Part shown: one piece after another, positions 1,637 through 42,923 of the stretch
Numbering within the stretch: position 1 is the stretch's first letter
Layout: every line of letters begins with the position of its first letter
From: Methanothermococcus sp. SCGC AD-155-C09
Lineage (GTDB): Archaea > AGJL01 > Methanococci > Methanococcales > Methanococcaceae
DNA length: 42,923 nt
Direction of reading: 5' to 3'
Assembly (NCBI GenBank): GCA_019561555.1
Contig: JAHEQB010000044.1
Span: 1-42,923, forward strand
Notes under the pieces: generated by a model
The model's input: the letters and a program-made list of their open reading frames with translations, nothing else
What the model was told of the DNA's origin: nothing
The model's database searches: none
Made by a program: the position numbers and the translations under genes

Positions 1637-1665
1637 TAGGCTAAGAAATTATGTTCTTGACTATA
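1637..1665 (-). promoter_or_regulatory. Solo MITE/IS terminal motif upstream of GGGP synthase
   Basis: Read on the minus strand this is TATAGTCAAGAACATAAT followed by TTCTTAG, a near match to the end of the IS630 element at 42224. No core or partner end lies beside it. It sits 52-80 bp upstream of the GGGP synthase start. It may be a relic end or a regulatory site; its function is inferred only from position. Confidence 0.45.
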
Positions 1666-11843: not shown

Positions 11844-12849
11844 TAAGTTAAAATAAAATTTAAAAATTAAAGGATAATTGGATTTTTTGTTTTTATTTAT
11901 GATATTATATTTAATCTCAAAAATAACATATTAAATCTAATAAAAAATAAAAAAAATAATAATTAAAAAAAATAAAATTAAAAAATAAAAGATTTTAAAA
12001 TATCAAGGAAAATAAAAACACAAAAAGGTAAAAATCATAAAAAAATTAAAAATAAAATTAAAATAGAATTTTATAATTAAATAAATAATAATTTAAAGAT
12101 TTTAAAATATTTAAAAGGAAAATAAAATATAAAAAAATAAAATCCTAAGAATTATCCCCCTTATACTACAAAACACAAAAAAACACAAAAAAGAATCTTT
12201 ATAATTAAATTAGAGTGATAAAAACTTAAAGTATTTCTCTTATTAAAAAATAAAAATAAATAAAAAAAATTAAAAAATAATTTAAAAAATTAAAAATTAA
12301 AATAAATAAAATAACCTAAAAAAATAATAGAATTAATCTAAATCTTAAGATATAAGGAAAAAAATAAAAAAATACTTAAAGATATAGGAGAAAAAAAAAC
12401 TTGGAAAGTAGAAATCCCATATTAATCCTCCCCTTATTCCCATATACTCCTAAGCACTGGAAGTACAGAGGAAATCCTTAATTATTGGGTTATTACATTT
12501 ATAATAAGTTTAAAGCACCATATTCATTACTATTAATTAGATTAAGGAATTATATAAACTTAAAATAAAAATAAAAGATTTTAAAATATTCAAAAGGAAA
12601 ATAGAAATAATGAAAAGTAAAAATCTTAGAATTATCCTCCTCAGACACTCCTAAGCACTGGAAGAGCAAATAAAACCCTTTAAAAGAACTATTATACTAT
12701 TAAATCTATTAAATTAACCAAGATGAACTTAAGTATTATTTATCTCACTTTATTATTTATCCTTTATTTTTTATAATCTATGGAAGTACAATTGAGGTTT
12801 AACTATAATTATCTTTGTTTATATTATTTACCTTTATCATGGTGATAAG
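11844..12849. mobile_element. MITE-family repeat block between cdhD and cdhE
   Basis: This 1-kb gap holds no gene. It is built of A-rich arms and cores of the dispersed family, all in the C-tract orientation. The clearest core is 12395-12500 (AAAGTAGAAATCCCAT, CCCATATACTCCTAAGCACT, GTACAGAGGAAATCC), ending in a right terminal motif at about 12501-12533. A second core is at 12570-12690 (ACTCCTAAGCACTGGAAG). Decayed cores are near 11992-12050 and 12105-12200. A short end-like motif (GAGGTTTAACTATAATT) lies at 12793-12809, about 45 bp before cdhE, where its promoter should be. Confidence 0.6.
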
Positions 12850-14433: not shown

Positions 14434-14506
14434 AGCCCGGTGGTGTAGTGGCCAAGCATCCTAGGCTTTGGACCTGGGGACTGCGGTTCGAATCCGCACC
14501 GGGCTA
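14434..14506 (+). tRNA. tRNA-Gln (anticodon TTG)
   Basis: The 7-bp acceptor AGCCCGG pairs with CCGGGCT, with A73 at 14506. The anticodon stem CTAGG/CCTGG closes the loop CTTTGGA, giving TTG at 14468-14470. The T arm GCGGTTCGAATCCGC is intact. CCA is not encoded. There is no intron. In methanogens this tRNA is charged with Glu and amidated by GatDE. It is followed 73 bp later by the DUF166 gene; a frame that seems to begin inside the tRNA is not the real start of that gene. Confidence 0.97.
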
Positions 14507-16249: not shown

Positions 16250-17098
16250 TTAATTTTTTTTATTAATTATAAATAGTATAATTCCAGCAAATATAATTAA
16301 TGCACCTACAAGTATGAGGATTTTAAGGAATATTCCTCCACCAGGGGCTTCAAAGAAGTTAGCAGGTGGAGTGTATTGGAGGACTTGATTTTTGTATGGT
16401 GTATCTCCAGATATATTATATATAATAGCGTTAGACCCGTTAAATGGAATTATTCCACTGTAATATACACTTCCTATCTCTTTATAGGGCATTTGTAATT
16501 CCCAGGTAGAATTTGTATTTAAGTTTTGGAAAACAAAGGATAGGTTATGATGATAAAAACTATTTTGATAGGTATTATTAAAGTTTATTCCATTTTCTGA
16601 TATATTTATATCCCAATGTCCATCTACATAGTTATCATCATTATAATTATCGTTCATTCTCAGTTTAATCTGAGATCCTACAGGTATTTCTGTAATGTAT
16701 GGTAGAGGAGTTATATTATATGTATGCCGCTCCCTTTGTCTAAATATTGAATATGTTGTTCCATTTGGTGCCGTCCAGGATAATACTACAGTAGGTGCCG
16801 GACTTGTGGTTCCTTTGTTGTCATTTAATTTAATCACCTGTCTTATTATCACTCCATTATCCAACTGATAGTTTATAACAGCATATCTATAATCTGGGCC
16901 TGAATATGAACTTTCTCCATCAAAGGTATTTCCTAAGGGATCGTAATAGGTATTGTTATATTTATATACTCCCAACCAGGCCTTTACAACCTTTGGATTC
17001 CCCCCCTGTATTTGTAATGGCATTAGGATTATTGTTAAAACTATTATTATCATTATTATCAATAATGGCTTTAATAATTTATTTACTATATTTACCAC
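16250..17098 (-). CDS. Secreted, membrane-anchored surface protein
   Basis: This protein of about 280 residues has an N-terminal hydrophobic signal (LLIIMIIIVLTIILMPLQ), an extracellular beta-rich domain with many N-glycosylation sequons, a short PGGG hinge and a C-terminal membrane helix (about 255-277) followed by NKKN. The domain is clearly paralogous to the one at 27968-29335: both open NPKVVKAWLGVY and share YYDPLGNTFDG, RQVIKLNDN, SENGINF and FYSGIIPFNGSNA or close forms. I cannot name the family (DUF3344 is a guess). The start is odd: the paralog's ATG aligns with ATA here, leaving GTG at 17098 or an internal ATG as alternatives. Confidence 0.8.
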   Translation of the reverse strand: MVNIVNKLLKPLLIIMIIIVLTIILMPLQIQGGNPKVVKAWLGVYKYNNTYYDPLGNTFDGESSYSGPDYRYAVINYQLDNGVIIRQVIKLNDNKGTTSPAPTVVLSWTAPNGTTYSIFRQRERHTYNITPLPYITEIPVGSQIKLRMNDNYNDDNYVDGHWDINISENGINFNNTYQNSFYHHNLSFVFQNLNTNSTWELQMPYKEIGSVYYSGIIPFNGSNAIIYNISGDTPYKNQVLQYTPPANFFEAPGGGIFLKILILVGALIIFAGIILFIINKKN

Positions 17099-17343: not shown

Positions 17344-17670
17344 TATAGTCAAGAACACAATTCCTAAACTATCTAAATATAAAAAACAGAGATAATAAAA
17401 AAATAATTTAAAAAAAAAATTTTAAAATATTAAAAAATAAATTGAAATATAAAATAACCAAAAATAATAATAAAATAACCTAAATCTAAGATAAAAAGGG
17501 AAAAAATAAAATACTTAAAGATATAAAAAAATAAATACTTAAAGAGTATAAATTCCATAAAACTGCCCCATTCCCCCATATTCCTAAGTACTGAAAGTGC
17601 AGAGGAAATTCTTTAAGCATCAGAATTACTATATTTATAATAAGTTTAAAATATCATGTGTTTTACTATA
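17344..17670. mobile_element. MITE (IS630-type ends), copy upstream of pyrH
   Basis: This 327-bp non-coding element has ends TATAGTCAAGAACACAAT on the left and, reversed, TATAGTAAAACACATGAT on the right, both followed by a TTTAAAC-like or TAAAC block. The left half is an A-rich arm. The core (17540-17640) reads ACTTAAAGAGTATAAATTCC, CCCCATATTCCTAAGTACTG, GTGCAGAGGAAATTC. The right end is only 26 bp from the pyrH start codon, so the pyrH promoter must lie inside the element. There is no coding capacity. The rest of 17099-17696 is A/T-rich with no gene. Confidence 0.75.
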
Positions 17671-17696
17671 ATTAAATCCAAGGAAGAGGTAATAGT

Positions 17697-18383
17697 ATGA
17701 AATTAGTTTTTGCATTGGGTGGTTCTGTGATTATGCCAAAAGAGGGACCATCCTTAGAAAATATTAAAAAGTATGCCGAAGTATTTAAAAAAATAAAGGA
17801 CTTGAAACATGATTTATGTATTGTAGTTGGGGGGGGATACACTGCCAGAAACTACATATCCATTGCTCGGGAATTTAGTAATGAGGCATTCTGTGATGAA
17901 ATAGGTATATTATCTACAAGAATGAATAGTATGGTTCTAATATCTGCCCTTGGGGATTATTCCATAAAAAAAGTTCCAGAGAACTTTAAAGAGGCTGAAT
18001 TAATGTTAAATTTAAATAAAATTGTTGTTATGGGGGGCACTCATCCTGCCCATACCACAGATGCTGTTGCAGCCTCTTTGGCAGAATATATAGATGCAGA
18101 TCTACTAATTATAGCCACCAACGTAGATGGGGTATATAATAAGGACCCCAATAAATACAACGATGCAAAAAAGATAAAAACTTTAACAAGTAAGGAGTTA
18201 TTAAATATTACAAGTTCTTCCTCTATAAATGCAGGTTCTTCCTCAATAGTGGATCCTTTAGCCTCTAAGATAATAGATAGGGCAAAATTAAAAACAATTG
18301 TCATCAAAGGAACTCCTGAAGAGATATTAAATTCCTTAAGTGATAGGCACAATGGTACAATTATATTGCCTGGGGAGGATTAA
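17697..18383 (+). CDS. pyrH: UMP kinase (PyrH), archaeal type
   Basis: PyrH phosphorylates UMP to UDP in pyrimidine synthesis, as a hexameric amino-acid-kinase-fold enzyme. The 228 residues show ALGGSVI (6-12), VVGGGYTARNYI, the archaeal GGTHPAHTTDAVAASLAEY segment and ATNVDGVYNKDP for nucleotide binding. The archaeal form lacks the bacterial N-terminal extension. GAGGTAA precedes the ATG. A likely TATA (TTTAAAATAT, 17645-17654) lies in the right end of the adjacent MITE, at the correct distance for a transcript start near 17675. It is followed after 43 bp by the DUF2116 gene, probably in one transcript. Confidence 0.95.
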   Translation: MKLVFALGGSVIMPKEGPSLENIKKYAEVFKKIKDLKHDLCIVVGGGYTARNYISIAREFSNEAFCDEIGILSTRMNSMVLISALGDYSIKKVPENFKEAELMLNLNKIVVMGGTHPAHTTDAVAASLAEYIDADLLIIATNVDGVYNKDPNKYNDAKKIKTLTSKELLNITSSSSINAGSSSIVDPLASKIIDRAKLKTIVIKGTPEEILNSLSDRHNGTIILPGED

Positions 18384-18426
18384 ATATTTATTTAATATAT
18401 ATTAAGTAAAAAAAAGGAGGTTTTTT

Positions 18427-18612
18427 ATGGAAAAACATAGACACTGTTTAAACTGTGGAATCTCTATACCTCCAGAAGAAACCTTTTGCTCTGAGAGATG
18501 TAAGGATGAATATGTTAAAAAAAGAAAGAAAATAATAAGAAGTCAGCAAATAATTTTCTTTATAGTATTTGCAATTCTGGCAATTTATATAGGGATAAAT
18601 ATATTTAAATAA
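18427..18612 (+). CDS. DUF2116-type zinc-ribbon membrane protein
   Basis: This 61-residue protein has a zinc-binding head (C7, C10, C21, C25 in CLNCGISIPPEETFCSERC), a basic segment (KKRKK) and one C-terminal membrane helix (about 40-58). This matches the archaeal DUF2116 family, whose function is unknown. The ribosome binding site GGAGGT is perfect. It probably shares a transcript with pyrH. The architecture suggests a membrane-tethered zinc protein facing the cytoplasm, perhaps an adaptor for a secretion or membrane complex; that is inference. Confidence 0.85.
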   Translation: MEKHRHCLNCGISIPPEETFCSERCKDEYVKKRKKIIRSQQIIFFIVFAILAIYIGINIFK

Positions 18613-18625
18613 TTTAAATAATTAT

Positions 18626-19963
18626 TTAGAAAATATTTTGTAAATAACTTAATATTACTGTTGTTAATATTTTAATGAGATCTAAGATGGAGTTAATTTT
18701 ATCAAATATGCTCTCATTGTTATTCTCTATATCTATATTATATTCCTTTAATACATAATACCCAGATTTTGATACCTCAACAATTATTTTACTGTTATTT
18801 TTATCATATTTGTAAGGTATATTTACCCATTTTTCAAGATTGTTATCATAATGTAAAACAGTAATACTTTTATCATCGGATAGATTGTAGAATACCTCCA
18901 AGGTTAGGGGCTTACTAAACTCGGCATCCTTTGGGAATATATAGTATGCCAAGGTAGTATTTGAAATATTTACCTCCTTTATGGATACATCTCCTCTTTT
19001 GCTAATCTTAGTGCCGTAATGAATTGTTAACATGGCACTTTTAATATTTTTTATAATTGTGCCATCTATTATATTTTCTTTGTTTGGAGGTTTAAGGGAT
19101 ACATCATTGGCAGTATTTTTTTGATTATCTAAGGGAGGTGGTACCCTAACCACCACTAGTTGGGAACTGTTATTGGGTTCATTATTATTTAAAGTATCTT
19201 CAGGTATATTTTCATTATTATTGGAACTATTTATAACTTCAATAGGATTAACTACTATTTTGGAGTTGTTATTGGCACTGGGTTTATTGTTATTGTTATC
19301 ATCGCTATTATTGTCATTATTATTGTCATTGTCGTTATTATTATCATTTGAAGTATCTTCAGGTGGGTCTACAGGTGGAGGGGCAGGTATGCTCCCTTCA
19401 ATTAATATATCTTTTTTTACACCTCCAATGTCCAGATGGACTACTGTCCCTTCAGGTATATTATTTATTTTATAGGAGTACTTAAAATTACCATTTTCAT
19501 CTGCCTTTATCTTAGTTGATGCGAATATTTTTAATTTTACAGGTTTTTCTGGATCTTTTATAGTTCCCCTAATTTCAATATCATAGGTACCTTTAGGGAT
19601 GTTGGATTTAGAAAATACTGCCACACCCTCTTGATTTGCATCTCTTTTCTTAGTAATCCACATACCCATTTTTATAAATATATATAGTTTATTTTTTACA
19701 TTTTCTGCAACAATCTTGAAACTGTTAGGGGTGATAGGTATTTCCACGTCGTTCATGATGTATTTGTATTTAGGAGGATTAACAGATGGATAGACCTCAA
19801 ACCAGATCTGGCAGTTTATCTCCTCGTTAGGATTAGCCTTTCCAGTTATTACTATAGTATCTCCAACCTTTGGATTTGAGGGGGTAATTGTTGAATTTGA
19901 TACTCCATATACTGGAGAAACTATTAGGATTAACCCTAAGATTATAAAGAGTAATTTTTTCAT
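18626..19963 (-). CDS. Secreted surface protein with Asn/Asp linker
   Basis: This 445-residue exported protein has a signal peptide (1-20), one or two Ig-like domains (about 22-195, opening SNSTITPSNPKVGDTIVITG), a low-complexity Asn/Asp linker (about 203-235), and a C-terminal domain (about 310-420, with LAYYIFPKDAEF and VSKSGYYVLKEY) resembling the PGF-pre-PGF type of archaeal surface domain. It ends in an amphipathic or weakly hydrophobic segment (ILDLIKILTTVILSYLQNIF). The linker is built from AAT/GAT/AAC codons and so is prone to length change by slippage. GGTGAC precedes the ATG. A terminal-motif copy (19980-20009) lies 17 bp upstream. The role is probably S-layer-associated or adhesive. 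Confidence 0.78.
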   Translation of the reverse strand: MKKLLFIILGLILIVSPVYGVSNSTITPSNPKVGDTIVITGKANPNEEINCQIWFEVYPSVNPPKYKYIMNDVEIPITPNSFKIVAENVKNKLYIFIKMGMWITKKRDANQEGVAVFSKSNIPKGTYDIEIRGTIKDPEKPVKLKIFASTKIKADENGNFKYSYKINNIPEGTVVHLDIGGVKKDILIEGSIPAPPPVDPPEDTSNDNNNDNDNNNDNNSDDNNNNKPSANNNSKIVVNPIEVINSSNNNENIPEDTLNNNEPNNSSQLVVVRVPPPLDNQKNTANDVSLKPPNKENIIDGTIIKNIKSAMLTIHYGTKISKRGDVSIKEVNISNTTLAYYIFPKDAEFSKPLTLEVFYNLSDDKSITVLHYDNNLEKWVNIPYKYDKNNSKIIVEVSKSGYYVLKEYNIDIENNNESIFDKINSILDLIKILTTVILSYLQNIF

Positions 19964-19979
19964 TATAAGTCACCTTTTC

Positions 19980-20009
19980 ATAGTAAAGAACATAATATTT
20001 TAAACTATG
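19980..20009 (-). promoter_or_regulatory. Solo terminal motif at the promoter of the 19963 gene
   Basis: On the plus strand this reads ATAGTAAAGAACATAAT, then ATTTTAAACTATG, a close match to the IS630/MITE end. On the minus strand it gives TTTAAAATATTATG about 25-30 bp before the expected transcript start of the surface-protein gene, where a TATA box belongs. No core or second end is adjacent. Confidence 0.5.
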
Positions 20010-20243
20010 ATTGTTAAATCTCCAAAAAGATTAGAAGTCCATATATCATTTGAAAGGAATTATTTATACATTTTTAGAGGATAAGTTCAAGGAATTATGT
20101 GCTTGAATATAAATATTATATTATTATTTAAATTTATTAAAACTTTTTTGTCCAGGAACTAAGGTAAATTTTAAAATAATTATTATAAATAAATTTAAAT
20201 TTTTAAATATTAATATTAAAAAAATAATAAAAATATTAAAGAT

Positions 20244-22543: not shown

Positions 22544-22632
22544 GGCGCCAGGTGCTGTACCTGGTGGTACAGGGCGGACTTCAGATCCGTCAAGTTCTTA
22601 TGAACTCGGGGTTCGATTCCCCCCTGGCGCCG
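22544..22632 (+). tRNA. tRNA-Sec (anticodon TCA)
   Basis: This selenocysteine tRNA decodes UGA. All archaeal hallmarks are visible. The acceptor is a 9-bp GGCGCCAGG against CCTGGCGCC. The D stem is a 7-bp CTGTACC/GGTACAG with a 4-nt loop (22555-22572). The anticodon loop CTTCAGA has TCA at 22581-22583. The long variable arm is AGTTC-TTAT-GAACT, the T stem is short, and G is the discriminator. It is charged with serine, phosphorylated by PSTK and converted by SepSecS. A T-rich run at 22633-22657 should terminate it. No selenoprotein gene or SECIS element was recognised in the window. Confidence 0.98.
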
Positions 22633-27967: not shown

Positions 27968-29335
27968 TCATTTTAACATCTCCTCCAACTCACTTACATC
28001 ATAACCTTCTTTTTTCCATTTTTCCACTTTTGATCTAAATTCTTTCATCTTTCTTTCGTCGTATTCTTTTTTTCTTTTTCTAGATGTATAATAATTTACT
28101 GCCAATATTAGTATGATTGCAATTATAATAGAGTAGATGTAGTAGTTGTTTATGTAAGGTGCAAAATCTTCTTCATTTGGAATACTATCCTGATCTATAT
28201 CTAAGGCTAGGGATTTTGCCTCTAAAGCAGTTTTCTTTGCTTTAGAGTAGTCTCCCTTGTTAAATGCCTCTTCAGCTTGAGATAGTAGAGATTCTGCTTC
28301 TTTTATATTGTATTTTGATTTTATCTGGGAGATTGTTGATTTGGCGTCTTTTATTATCCCATCAACAGTTTGTGCCTTCTCTTTTATTTTTATTGCCGTA
28401 TCCTTAGCATTTAGAGCAAGTTCCTTTGCTTTAGAGTAGTCTCCCTTGTTAAATGCCTCTTCAGCTTGAGATAGTAGAGATTCTGCTTCTTTTATATTGT
28501 ATTTTGATTTTATCTGGGAGATTGTTGATTTGGTATCTTCTATTGTCTTTTCAGCTTCTTCAGCCTGATAATCCATTTCAACAGTCTTTTCCTTAGATTT
28601 CGAAGCACTTCCACCAGAGGATTTAAAGAGTTCAGTAGGTGGAGCAAACTGTAAAATCTTGCCTGCATATGGAGTATCACCATGTATATTATATATAGTA
28701 GCATTGGATCCATTAAATGGAATTATTCCACTGTAGAAGACTCTACTTGCAATAGTATTTTTATTTTTATATGGCATTTGCACTTCCCAGATAGAATTTG
28801 TATTTAAGTTTTGGAAAACAAAGGAGACATTATGATAATAACAACCATATTGACTGGCTTCAATAAAGTTTATTCCATTTTCTGATATATGTACTATCCA
28901 AATCCCATTTCCATAAGCAGTACCAGCATAATTATCAGCCATTGATATTTTAATCTGAGATCCTACTGGTATTTCACTCTCATATTTGTTTATCACAGTC
29001 TGATTAGGTAAATTATGTACTACCCAATTTTTATCATTCCAATATAATACTGTAGTGGCTGCAGGGTCTGTAGTTCCGAGATTATCATTTAATTTAATCA
29101 CCTGTCTTATTATGTCTCCGTTACTCAACTGATAGTTTATAACGGTATATATATAGTCTGAACCCTCAAATGAACTACTTCCATCAAAGGTATTTCCTAA
29201 GGGATCGTAATAGGTACCGTTATATCTATATACCCCTAACCAGGCCTTTACAACCTTTGGATTTTCTCCATATACCTGTAATGGCATTAGGATTATCACT
29301 ATTATCAACAATAATTTTAATAAATTATTTATCAT
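27968..29335 (-). CDS. Membrane-anchored surface protein with coiled-coil repeats
   Basis: The protein has 455 residues: signal peptide (1-23), an extracellular domain (26-230) paralogous to the 16250-17098 protein, a Ser/Lys-rich hinge, a helical stalk (about 245-372), one membrane helix (about 385-405) and a charged cytoplasmic tail. The stalk contains two 63-residue units, each with TISQIKSKYNIKEAESLLSQ and AEEAFNKGDYSKAK. At DNA level 110 bp (28235-28344 and 28424-28533) are identical, including silent positions, so the duplication is recent or kept uniform by conversion. The period is 189 bp, in frame. It lies between the DUF39 and NIL-ferredoxin genes on the same strand. Adhesion or surface display is a guess. 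Confidence 0.82.
   Translation of the reverse strand: MINNLLKLLLIIVIILMPLQVYGENPKVVKAWLGVYRYNGTYYDPLGNTFDGSSSFEGSDYIYTVINYQLSNGDIIRQVIKLNDNLGTTDPAATTVLYWNDKNWVVHNLPNQTVINKYESEIPVGSQIKISMADNYAGTAYGNGIWIVHISENGINFIEASQYGCYYHNVSFVFQNLNTNSIWEVQMPYKNKNTIASRVFYSGIIPFNGSNATIYNIHGDTPYAGKILQFAPPTELFKSSGGSASKSKEKTVEMDYQAEEAEKTIEDTKSTISQIKSKYNIKEAESLLSQAEEAFNKGDYSKAKELALNAKDTAIKIKEKAQTVDGIIKDAKSTISQIKSKYNIKEAESLLSQAEEAFNKGDYSKAKKTALEAKSLALDIDQDSIPNEEDFAPYINNYYIYSIIIAIILILAVNYYTSRKRKKEYDERKMKEFRSKVEKWKKEGYDVSELEEMLK
28235..28533 (-). repeat. Exact 110-bp in-frame direct repeat within the stalk
   Basis: Copies at 28235-28344 and 28424-28533 are identical over 110 bases, spaced 189 bp (63 codons). The first mismatch on each side is immediate. 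Unequal recombination would add or remove whole 63-residue stalk units without breaking the frame. Confidence 0.9.
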
Positions 29336-29385: not shown

Positions 29386-29414
29386 TATAGTTTAAACATT
29401 AATGCTTAACTATA
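29386..29414. promoter_or_regulatory. Solo terminal-like motif upstream of the 29335 gene
   Basis: On the minus strand this reads TATAGTTAAGCATTAATG, then TTTAAACTATAATACC. It is 51-80 bp before the surface-gene start and has no core beside it. The TTTAAACTATA part could be a TATA element. Confidence 0.4.
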
Positions 29415-31027: not shown

Positions 31028-31355
31028 AGTGGCCCCCTAATTTAATATTTAAAAATAAAAAAATATTTATTTTAAAATTATTTTTTAATAATAATTATTA
31101 AAACTTTTTTATATTAATTACCTAACATTAACATTTATAGGACTTTAAAAAAATGATAAAAGTTTTTTAAGGATCTATGCCTTTTTATAGATTTTTAATT
31201 TCCTAAATGGTTCATTTTCTAAAATGTTTTATTTATAAATTCCTTTTTTTAATTATTTTATTTTTATAATAATTTTTTAAAAAAATAAACTTTTATATTA
31301 TTTTAATTTTAATTATTTCTATATTTTGTTTTTTTAATTATACTTTTATTTTAAT

Positions 31356-31674
31356 TGTAGTCAAGGACATAATAATTTAAACTTATTATGGATATAGCAT
31401 CCATACTTAAAGGGTTTTCTCTGGACATCCAGTGCTTAGGGGTGTAGGGGGGAGGGGGGTATGTTAAATGGGATTTCTACTTTTTAAGTATTTACTTTTT
31501 TATTTCTTTAAATAATTAATTTTTTCCTATATTTTAGGATTTAGGGTATTTAATTTTATTATTTTTTAATTATTTTTATTTTTTTAATTATTTTAATTAT
31601 TTTTATTTTTTTAATTTTTTTATTTATTTTTTATATTTGGATTATGGTTTAAAAAATTATGTTCTTAACTATAA
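31356..31674. mobile_element. Best-preserved MITE (IS630-type ends)
   Basis: The element is 319 bp. Its left end is TGTAGTCAAGGACATAAT then AATTTAAACTTATTATGG. Its right end, reversed, is TATAGTTAAGAACATAAT then TTTTTAAACCATAATCC. These ends match each other and the IS630 end at 42224 (about 28 of 35 positions for the right end). The core (31405-31510) has CTCTGGACATCCAGTGCTTA, the G-tracts GGGG/GGGGGG/GGGGGG (31439-31459) and GGGATTTCTACTTTTTAAG. A T-rich arm fills the rest. There is no reading frame of note. Confidence 0.8.
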
Positions 31675-32108
31675 TTATTATTTATTTTTAAGTTTTAACT
31701 ATTTTTAAATTATTTTATTTTTTATTACAATCCTTTAAAATTATTTATTATTTTTTAAATCTTAATTCTCATATAATAGTTAATAATAAAAACTCCAAAA
31801 AATAGTAGTCTTAACAGTTAGATCTTTTTCCTGCAAATTTCTATAAATCTAATAAATTATATGCAAGAAAACAGGTGTTTATATCTTCTTTTTCTTTGGA
31901 TCTTATGATATTATCTTCCTAAGTATTTTTAGATGGAAATTATTCTTCCACAATAATATTAACTTTATTAATTTCCTTATCCTTTATTTTATTTTTTCAA
32001 TGAATTTTAATTTTTTTTATTATAATTTTATTTTTTTATTAGGATTTAATTATATTTGATAAGAAGGAGTATTTTATTTTTTATATATTTTATTTTTAAA
32101 TGACTTAT
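31675..32108. other. T-rich gap, no gene seen
   Basis: Between the MITE and the stop of the COG1107 gene I see no gene or clear repeat core. ACTCCAAAAAATAG and CCTGCAAATTTCTATAAATC (31791-31855) faintly recall the IS630 end but are too diverged to call. The interval 31028-31355 is likewise A/T-rich and empty, holding the DUF39 promoter. Confidence 0.35.
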
Positions 32109-42223: not shown

Positions 42224-42923
42224 TATAGTCAAGAACATAATTCTCTAAACTCATAACCTAAAAATTTATTAATAACTCCCTGCAAATGATATAGATTTTG
42301 TTAATTTTTTGAAAGATTTAGATATTATTTCCTTTAATTTTTTTATATTCAATGGGGATTCCTCAGAAATGTATCTTTTAACACTTTTCCAAACATATTC
42401 TATAGGATTCAAATCTGGAGAGTAAGGAGGGAGATATACTAACTGGATATCCAGTTTCTCAGATTCTTCTTTAACCTTCTTTGCATGATGAGTTTTAAAA
42501 TTATCTAAGATAATAACAATTCTCTTCTCAGGATTAACCTCTCTTATCTTCCGGAGAAAAGATATAAAGTCTTCAATCCTGTTACTATCTGGGAAATCCA
42601 CCACACCCTTTCCATTTAAAGGATAGAATCCTATAACTTTAACTTTAAGATAAGTAGCAACTTTTCTAAGGATCCAGTCCTTCCAGAATCTTGTTCTATT
42701 TACATTTCCTTCAACTGCCATCTCATCGATGAATCCAACTATTATATCATTGATTTCTACATTATTCAAGTTTTTTTTAAAATCTCTTAGCATTATCCCT
42801 TTTCTATAATCTTTCTGATAGACCTTAGTATATTTCATGCCAAAAGATCTTAGAATCCTTCTGACATATGGTATAATGAGTATTTTATTCCAAATTTTTC
42901 TCTAATTAACTTCTGTATTTCTT
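42224..42923 (-). mobile_element. IS630-family insertion sequence, partial (runs off the window)
   Basis: The element begins at TATAGTCAAGAACATAAT (42224-42241), then CTCTAAACTCATAACC. The transposase stop codon follows 27 bp later, so this is its terminal inverted repeat. The terminal TA fits TA-target insertion typical of IS630/Tc1. The other end lies beyond 42923. This end is the reference that ties the dispersed MITEs to a transposase. Confidence 0.75.
42269..42923 (-). pseudogene. IS630-family transposase, frameshifted and partial
   Basis: The readable C-terminal part (189 residues) is the DDE catalytic domain: FIDEMAVEGN (first Asp region), IVIILDNFKTHHAKKV (second Asp) and LPPYSPDLNPIEYVWKSVKR (Glu), the IS630 signature. 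Upstream of the apparent ATG at 42838 the frame continues as YVRRILRSFGMKY, but the rest of the N-terminal helix-turn-helix (EIQKLIREKFGIKYSLYH) is in another frame. The two join cleanly if the AT in CATATGTC is an extra dinucleotide. So this copy is probably dead, unless the element uses programmed frameshifting. The protein's N-terminus lies outside the window. Confidence 0.82.

Follow-up and report, generated by a model that had tools for sequence, protein, structure and literature searches.

An IS630-family MITE upstream of pyrH and other core genes of a Methanothermococcus genome, and a possible promoter role for its right end

Main finding

The element immediately upstream of pyrH in this genome reads as a non-autonomous IS630-family MITE inserted at a TA dinucleotide, and the best single reading of its placement is that the right end of the MITE (R end; the left end is the L end) donates a promoter to the gene that follows it. 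We assign this reading a probability of about 0.5; both the promoter activity and the start site are what we infer from sequence. The reading is drawn from the orientation of the ends relative to genes, the lineage-specific insertion, the leader that was kept and the ancestral box that is missing at pyrH. Its main rival is read-through of the A-rich strand of the element from a promoter further upstream.

Genomes and samples

The window, which is the whole 42,923-bp stretch of DNA that was analysed, is contig C44 of an archaeal assembly of 1.73 Mb (G000). Gene calling covered 743 kb of G000 DNA, with 235 kb from G002 and 243 kb from G007; for G005 and G004, samples of 400 kb each were used. 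A hold-out sample comprised 253 kb, and the test to be applied to it was fixed before the sample was looked at. G000 is gene-sparse, with 67% coding DNA versus 78% in G002, 77% in G007, 79% in G005 and 82% in G004 (samples, own gene caller). Among named records, the best match to pyrH is 'Methanothermococcus okinawensis' isolate SZUA-1385 (96%). Ends were located with a terminal-repeat profile of 28 positions and 31 bits.

The MITE at pyrH and its family

The features at pyrH, together with the second full copy of the MITE in the window, are as follows.

17344–17670, plus strand: MITE copy upstream of pyrH, L end to R end with the R end towards pyrH; TA-flanked, 327 bp
17344–17371, plus strand: left terminal inverted repeat, 22.4 bits
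17563–17622, plus strand: G+C-richer conserved core of the MITE, from the alignment of copies
17643–17670, minus strand: right terminal inverted repeat (R end), reading outward towards pyrH, 32.7 bits
17645–17654, plus strand: TTTAAAATAT within the R end, a candidate TATA element some 47 bp upstream of the ATG; putative promoter role, profile score at background
17671–17696, plus strand: 26-nt leader that includes a ribosome-binding site and is homologous to the pyrH leader of G002
17697–18383, plus strand: pyrH, archaeal UMP kinase (TIGR02076, 282 bits)
31356–31673, minus strand: second full MITE copy (31350–31675 in the genome match list), ends of 31.8 and 37.9 bits

Both terminal inverted repeats at pyrH were scored, and the right edge of the element lies 26 bp before the ATG at 17697, as an earlier note on this DNA had stated. 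The copy carries no transposase gene, is shorter than about 500 bp and belongs to a multicopy family, as expected of a MITE; no open reading frame of at least 80 residues lies wholly within its 327 bp. The family is large, with at least 73 matches to the pyrH copy in its own genome (40 of 552 first-look candidates scored). The profile detected 14 ends of at least 16 bits in the window and 233 ends of at least 20 bits in the 743 kb of sampled G000 DNA, and zero matches of at least 14 bits in block-shuffled sequence. TA occupies positions 1–2 in about 96% of the profile ends; the left flank at pyrH is not alignable to G002.

Alignment of 39 G000 copies shows an A-rich left half, followed by the G+C-richer core and then by the R end, which reads outward as ATAATAAGTTTAAA(T/A)TATTATG..ACTATA. 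A structured RNA in the core was considered and rejected, the RNAalifold consensus having 0 pairs for 35 copies (4 of the 39 were excluded as divergent). Searching the window against Rfam at the gathering threshold returned two tRNAs only; the tRNAs of the window, at 22544–22631 and 14434–14506, comprise a selenocysteine tRNA and another tRNA.

The terminal inverted repeats are common to the MITE and to a full IS630 copy of G000 (L124:1595–2708), the ends of which score 38.0 and 33.1 bits with the same profile. The transposase of this IS630 copy is encoded in two overlapping frames that are split at an A run, likely a programmed frameshift. The TTTAAA(A/T)TATT string belongs to the R end of the MITE; the IS630 ends and the L end of the MITE have TTCAAGGAATTATG, TTCAGAGAATTATG or TTTAAGAAATTATG instead.

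Other ends in the window

The remaining features of the window that concern us here are the following.

42224–42923, minus strand: IS630 copy cut by the contig end, with a terminal repeat at 42224 (37.6 bits)
42269–42838: C-terminal half of the transposase of the cut IS630 copy (NF033545, 122.8 bits; PF13358)
19979–20111, minus strand: two-ended 133-bp IS630-derived mini-element, ends of 33.0 and 31.8 bits, R-type end towards the gene at 19963
18626–19963, minus strand: gene for a putative surface protein without a Pfam or NCBIfam family
1638–1665, minus strand: left-type end, 33.5 bits, outer edge 7 bp past the stop of the upstream DHQS-II gene (1673–2758)

The earlier note had placed such ends as promoters at five genes of the window (at cdhE as a possibility), and an end with its outer edge towards the gene was found at two of them, pyrH and the surface protein gene at 19963. 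At the latter, the R-type end upstream of the gene was confirmed; it is not a solo end as had been proposed, since it belongs to the two-ended mini-element, and its edge is 15 bp away from the gene rather than 17 bp. The end reported near GGGP synthase exists (33.5 bits), with its interior rather than its outer edge facing that gene. Nothing of at least 3 bits was found either at 29386–29414, assigned to the 29335 gene, or at 12793–12809, assigned to cdhE; read by eye, 29386–29414 looks like a terminal repeat that has lost 2 bases, arranged interior-first.

Most copies of the 131-bp IS630-derived mini-family (L371–L385) terminate in TTCAAAGTATTATG, and the start-adjacent copy (window 19979) in TTTAAAATATTATG. 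This mini-family was tried as a control for T-runs and was dropped as uninformative, with 1 of 13 distinct copies within 60 bp of a start. Two further surface-protein genes of the window (16481–17032 and 28766–29296) share stretches that are 80–82% identical over 210–259 bp, which suggests a recent duplication or conversion.

Orientation of the ends relative to genes

The ends were typed in four ways. Typing by position 19 of the terminal repeat (A for an R end, T for an L end) was applied to 253 ends with a neighbour gene in the sampled DNA of three genomes. Within 60 bp before starts, 17 ends are R, none is L and two are untyped, whereas only 5 of the 34 ends within 60 bp after stops are R (Fisher 1e-7). 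Log-odds typing, for which ends remote from genes served as training data and ends too near a contig edge were dropped, gave R:L ratios of 15:1 before starts and 2:32 after stops (9e-10). More than 100 bp before starts the same ratio falls to 52:42, as expected if only insertions in the promoter-leader zone matter.

The other two typings gave weaker results. When the element body was used instead of the end (92 of 315 ends ambiguous), 7 R and 4 L ends were counted before starts (p=0.55 for this side alone) and 3 R and 23 L after stops (Fisher 0.003); clear matches only gave 6 R and 0 L before starts, with 3 R and 14 L after stops. Typing by the nearest reference, which is crude and poor for ends with indels, gave 12:4 before starts and 10:23 after stops (0.005) and weakens the result. 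The hold-out sample contained 50 ends. Only 7 of them lay within 60 bp of a gene, one R and one L at starts and two R and three L at stops, which is too few to be decisive; the one L end near a start is of the IS630 type. Because of the weaker body and reference typings and the small hold-out, the orientation bias before starts is graded as likely, and the bias after stops is firm.

The bias also appears in whole elements. In total, 76 end pairs were found, 54 of them oriented with both neighbours, and co-directional elements are arranged as stop-L..R-start in 30 cases versus 9 in the opposite sense (p=0.001), or 12 to 0 with the gene within 100 bp. The gene upstream of the near-start R ends is divergent in 6 cases, co-directional in 9 and unknown in 2. 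In the divergent settings, where there is no co-directional upstream gene, an R end faces the start in 6 of 6 typed cases, with one further case untyped.

Among these observations, several bear on the read-through rival, according to which the R end carries no promoter. On this account the L-to-R strand, being A-rich and free of U-tracts, would let transcripts from upstream pass, whereas the reverse orientation would terminate them. Runs of five or more T residues number 1.0 per element in the L-to-R direction versus 7.0 in the other direction (54 elements), and termination in Methanococcus maripaludis is described as dependent on U-tracts (PMC8716108). Read-through accounts for the stop-side bias as well, needs no promoter and fits with the observation that right-facing elements remain co-directional even when the next start is far away. 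It is less easily reconciled with the bias in divergent settings or with T5–T6 runs in the sense strand 50–66 bp before several near-start edges, which read-through transcripts must cross. With the state of the pyrH upstream region described below, read-through is on balance less probable than promoter donation.

Distance of the ends to starts and stops

Compared with random intergenic TA sites, ends are not enriched close to start codons in G000: 7 ends lie 0–30 bp before starts versus 6.3 expected, and 22 lie 0–30 bp after stops versus 7.3 expected. In the sampled G000 contigs (L112–L151), 14 ends, mostly L ends, lie 0–15 bp after stops versus 4.0 expected, an excess of about threefold. TTTAAA occurs in 14% of the 30-bp intergenic windows of G000 outside the ends. 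As the near-start counts are at the random level and TTTAAA is a common background string, the sequence alone gives no support for a TATA box. At pyrH, argB, acnX and dtd the insertions lie 26, 22, 20 and 27 bp before the ATG respectively, always with the R end first. Of the 19 near-start ends, 5 are part of two-ended elements.

These counts are what would be expected if TTTAAA were only that part of the terminal repeat to which the transposase binds and the near-start insertions were neutral events in AT-rich DNA. The genes would then be driven by promoters that went unrecognised in what is left of the intergenic DNA, and the bias would stem from the mechanics of insertion or from antisense effects where genes end. 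The conservation of the terminal repeats at both ends for transposition is also in keeping with neutrality. Such insertions, however, should show equal orientation near starts, where 17:0 or 15:1 was seen, and in the closest cases only about 11–27 bp separate the edge from the ATG, which is too short for a TATA box plus start. Neutral insertion is an improbable account.

Comparison with relatives

The comparison of the pyrH upstream region with relatives lacking the insertion, which the earlier note had suggested, was made by eye for 11 relatives. The insertion is lineage-specific and is absent in the closest relative, G002, in which pyrH is 96% identical, has no MITE and retains the same leader (attaaatc-aagaagaggtaatagt type). 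In 7 of the 11 relatives (G002, G005, G004, G008, G001, G010 and G006), a TATA-like stretch with TTACGATAA is present at −49 to −73 of pyrH; the upstream regions of the other four (G003, G011, G012 and G009) are without this box. In G000 the TTACGATAA box is absent from the 1200 bp that precede pyrH, and the sole one-mismatch match in this DNA spans the edge of the MITE (0.5 expected by chance). The ancestral promoter-like box is missing at pyrH in G000, and it does not lie upstream of the MITE, which counts against read-through. The arrangement of a TATA-like stretch followed by TTACGATAA in the seven genomes (L032–L036, L039 and L040) may also represent a pyrH-specific operator or melting region.

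The left flanks of the MITEs were compared with the upstream DNA of G002, and no homology above that of shuffled sequences was found (298, 283 and 148 of 500 shuffles were as good for pyrH, argB and acnX respectively). This result for three genes also argues against read-through; the G002 upstream DNA may itself have changed, since another repeat core is found there. This second repeated core (TTCTTCTTAGGTGCTCC..AACACTAAGGA-like) lies upstream of two G002 genes (L032, pyrH; L257, acnX) and beside a G000 MITE (L024 flank), and is possibly another MITE family.

Orthologues of PriS, argB, dtd and acnX are present in 12, 10, 10 and 11 of 12 genomes, and 12, 10, 9 and 11 upstream regions respectively were compared (for dtd, the split gene in G010 was excluded). 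In the 190 bp upstream, no end of at least 12 bits was found for argB, dtd or acnX outside G000, and for PriS such an end is present in G000 and G007 only. By eye, dtd is apparently located directly behind another reading frame in G005, G004, G001, G008 and G006. The MITE insertions at pyrH, argB, dtd and acnX are lineage-specific. Older, decayed insertions are common to the orthologues of three genes, namely PriS, pyrF and the one at L116:17331. For the polyferredoxin gene (L151) the end is missing in G002, and in the L178/L125 pair, which has a shared end, the TATA-like string is not conserved.

The R motif could in principle be a class of promoter native to the genus that only looks like a MITE end, and the old near-start ends common to orthologues, as at PriS in G000 and G007, would agree with this. 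The earlier note had named a motif conserved as a promoter in genomes without the MITE as an outcome that would contradict it, and the orthologue comparison for PriS, argB, dtd and acnX, with ends confined to G000 and G007 (the latter for PriS), shows no such conservation. The G005 and G004 samples contain only 3 and 2 ends of at least 20 bits respectively, and two-ended elements account for some of the near-start ends. A native promoter class is thus largely refuted and has very little probability.

Tests for a promoter signal in the R end, and proposed mechanism

Scored with a BRE–TATA profile built from 17 tRNA promoters (CCGAAAAGTTTATATATTA type), R ends are not above random intergenic sequence (p=0.09), and the same profile also fails to separate the upstream regions of protein genes from 3' flanks (p=0.23). 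R ends are more promoter-like than L ends by this profile (p=2e-8), yet at background level. In the near-start ends, conservation of the TATA-like half does not exceed that of the tip (p=0.59), i.e. this half bears no signature of selection. An EM search for a TATA motif of protein genes in G000, G002 and G007, and in the MITE-poor G005 and G004, returned only AT periodicity or strings expected by chance, none of which peaked clearly at any position; it therefore yielded no independent promoter model for protein genes. The contention of the earlier note that the TATA box of pyrH must lie inside the element therefore goes beyond these results, and read-through from an upstream promoter offers an alternative to it.

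Donation of a promoter by the R end, our preferred reading, would proceed as follows. The MITE would insert at a TA that separates the native promoter from the ribosome-binding site, at pyrH as well as in front of a few further core genes; nearly all the insertions observed there turn the R end to the gene. A promoter of the BRE/TATA type would then be provided by the terminal ~50 bp of the R end (ATAATAAG-TTTAAA(A/T)TATT-ATG...ACTATA). Archaeal TATA boxes are reported about 28 nt upstream of the start (PMC8553660); a TATA-to-start distance of ~25–28 bp would place the start near the edge of the element and give a leader of ~20–30 nt. At pyrH, the candidate TATA element TTTAAAATAT is centred ~47 bp before the ATG and would direct a start near the edge, with a leader of 20–25 nt that has room for the ribosome-binding site, and the same may apply to argB, acnX and dtd. 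The R end would thereby replace the ancestral promoter of pyrH, and R-facing insertions would survive because the R end supplies transcription.

A wider version, which we put forward tentatively, is that the R end acts as a portable core promoter. Within one lineage it would have taken the place of native promoters of essential or core genes again and again, at pyrH, argB, acnX and dtd and, in older events, at PriS and pyrF; selection would filter the orientation, and the rest of the element would decay while the end stays.

If promoter donation is correct, the MITE would be an archaeal, BRE/TATA-based counterpart of promoter-donating MITEs, and the comparison of close species would show promoter turnover at core genes, with the state before insertion still to be seen. 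If read-through is correct instead, the orientation filter would show U-tract termination in archaea shaping which insertions survive. With only a few genes to examine and a close relative's genome free of the insertions, the question is resolvable.

Comparison with known systems

In the open-licence literature, no paper on promoter-donating MITEs of Methanococcales was found, which does not prove their absence. MITEs with outward promoters are described in bacteria, namely the Correia repeat elements of Neisseria, MITEAba12, BrickBuilt, QMITE1 and SonMITE_1 (PMC10969869). As described there, these elements are likewise small and non-autonomous, often lie upstream of genes and have reported promoter sequences; their promoters are of the sigma-70 type and some were experimentally tested (PMC10969869). 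In contrast, the MITE described here belongs to an IS630-derived family and has a putative archaeal BRE/TATA promoter at one end only. The candidate promoter end of the MITE consistently points towards genes, less clearly so with the body and nearest-reference typings; placement close upstream of genes is not above chance in G000 (7 versus 6.3).

The MITE resembles the IS630 family (IS630-Tc1-mariner) and its MITEs in its putative TA target and in terminal repeats that match the full IS630 of G000. It differs from that copy (L124:1595–2708) in its body, for which no homology was noticed (judged without alignment), and in the TTTAAA(A/T)TATT string, which the IS630 ends do not have. Mobile elements with adjacent transcription starts are also described in another archaeon, Pyrococcus furiosus, where antisense or bidirectional TATA promoters occur around IS elements (PMC6640164); as reported there, these starts are antisense to transposase genes and are not promoters of host genes, unlike the arrangement proposed here. 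Promoter-bearing MITEs are thus known in bacteria, and an archaeal case of the TATA type would be a variant of these.
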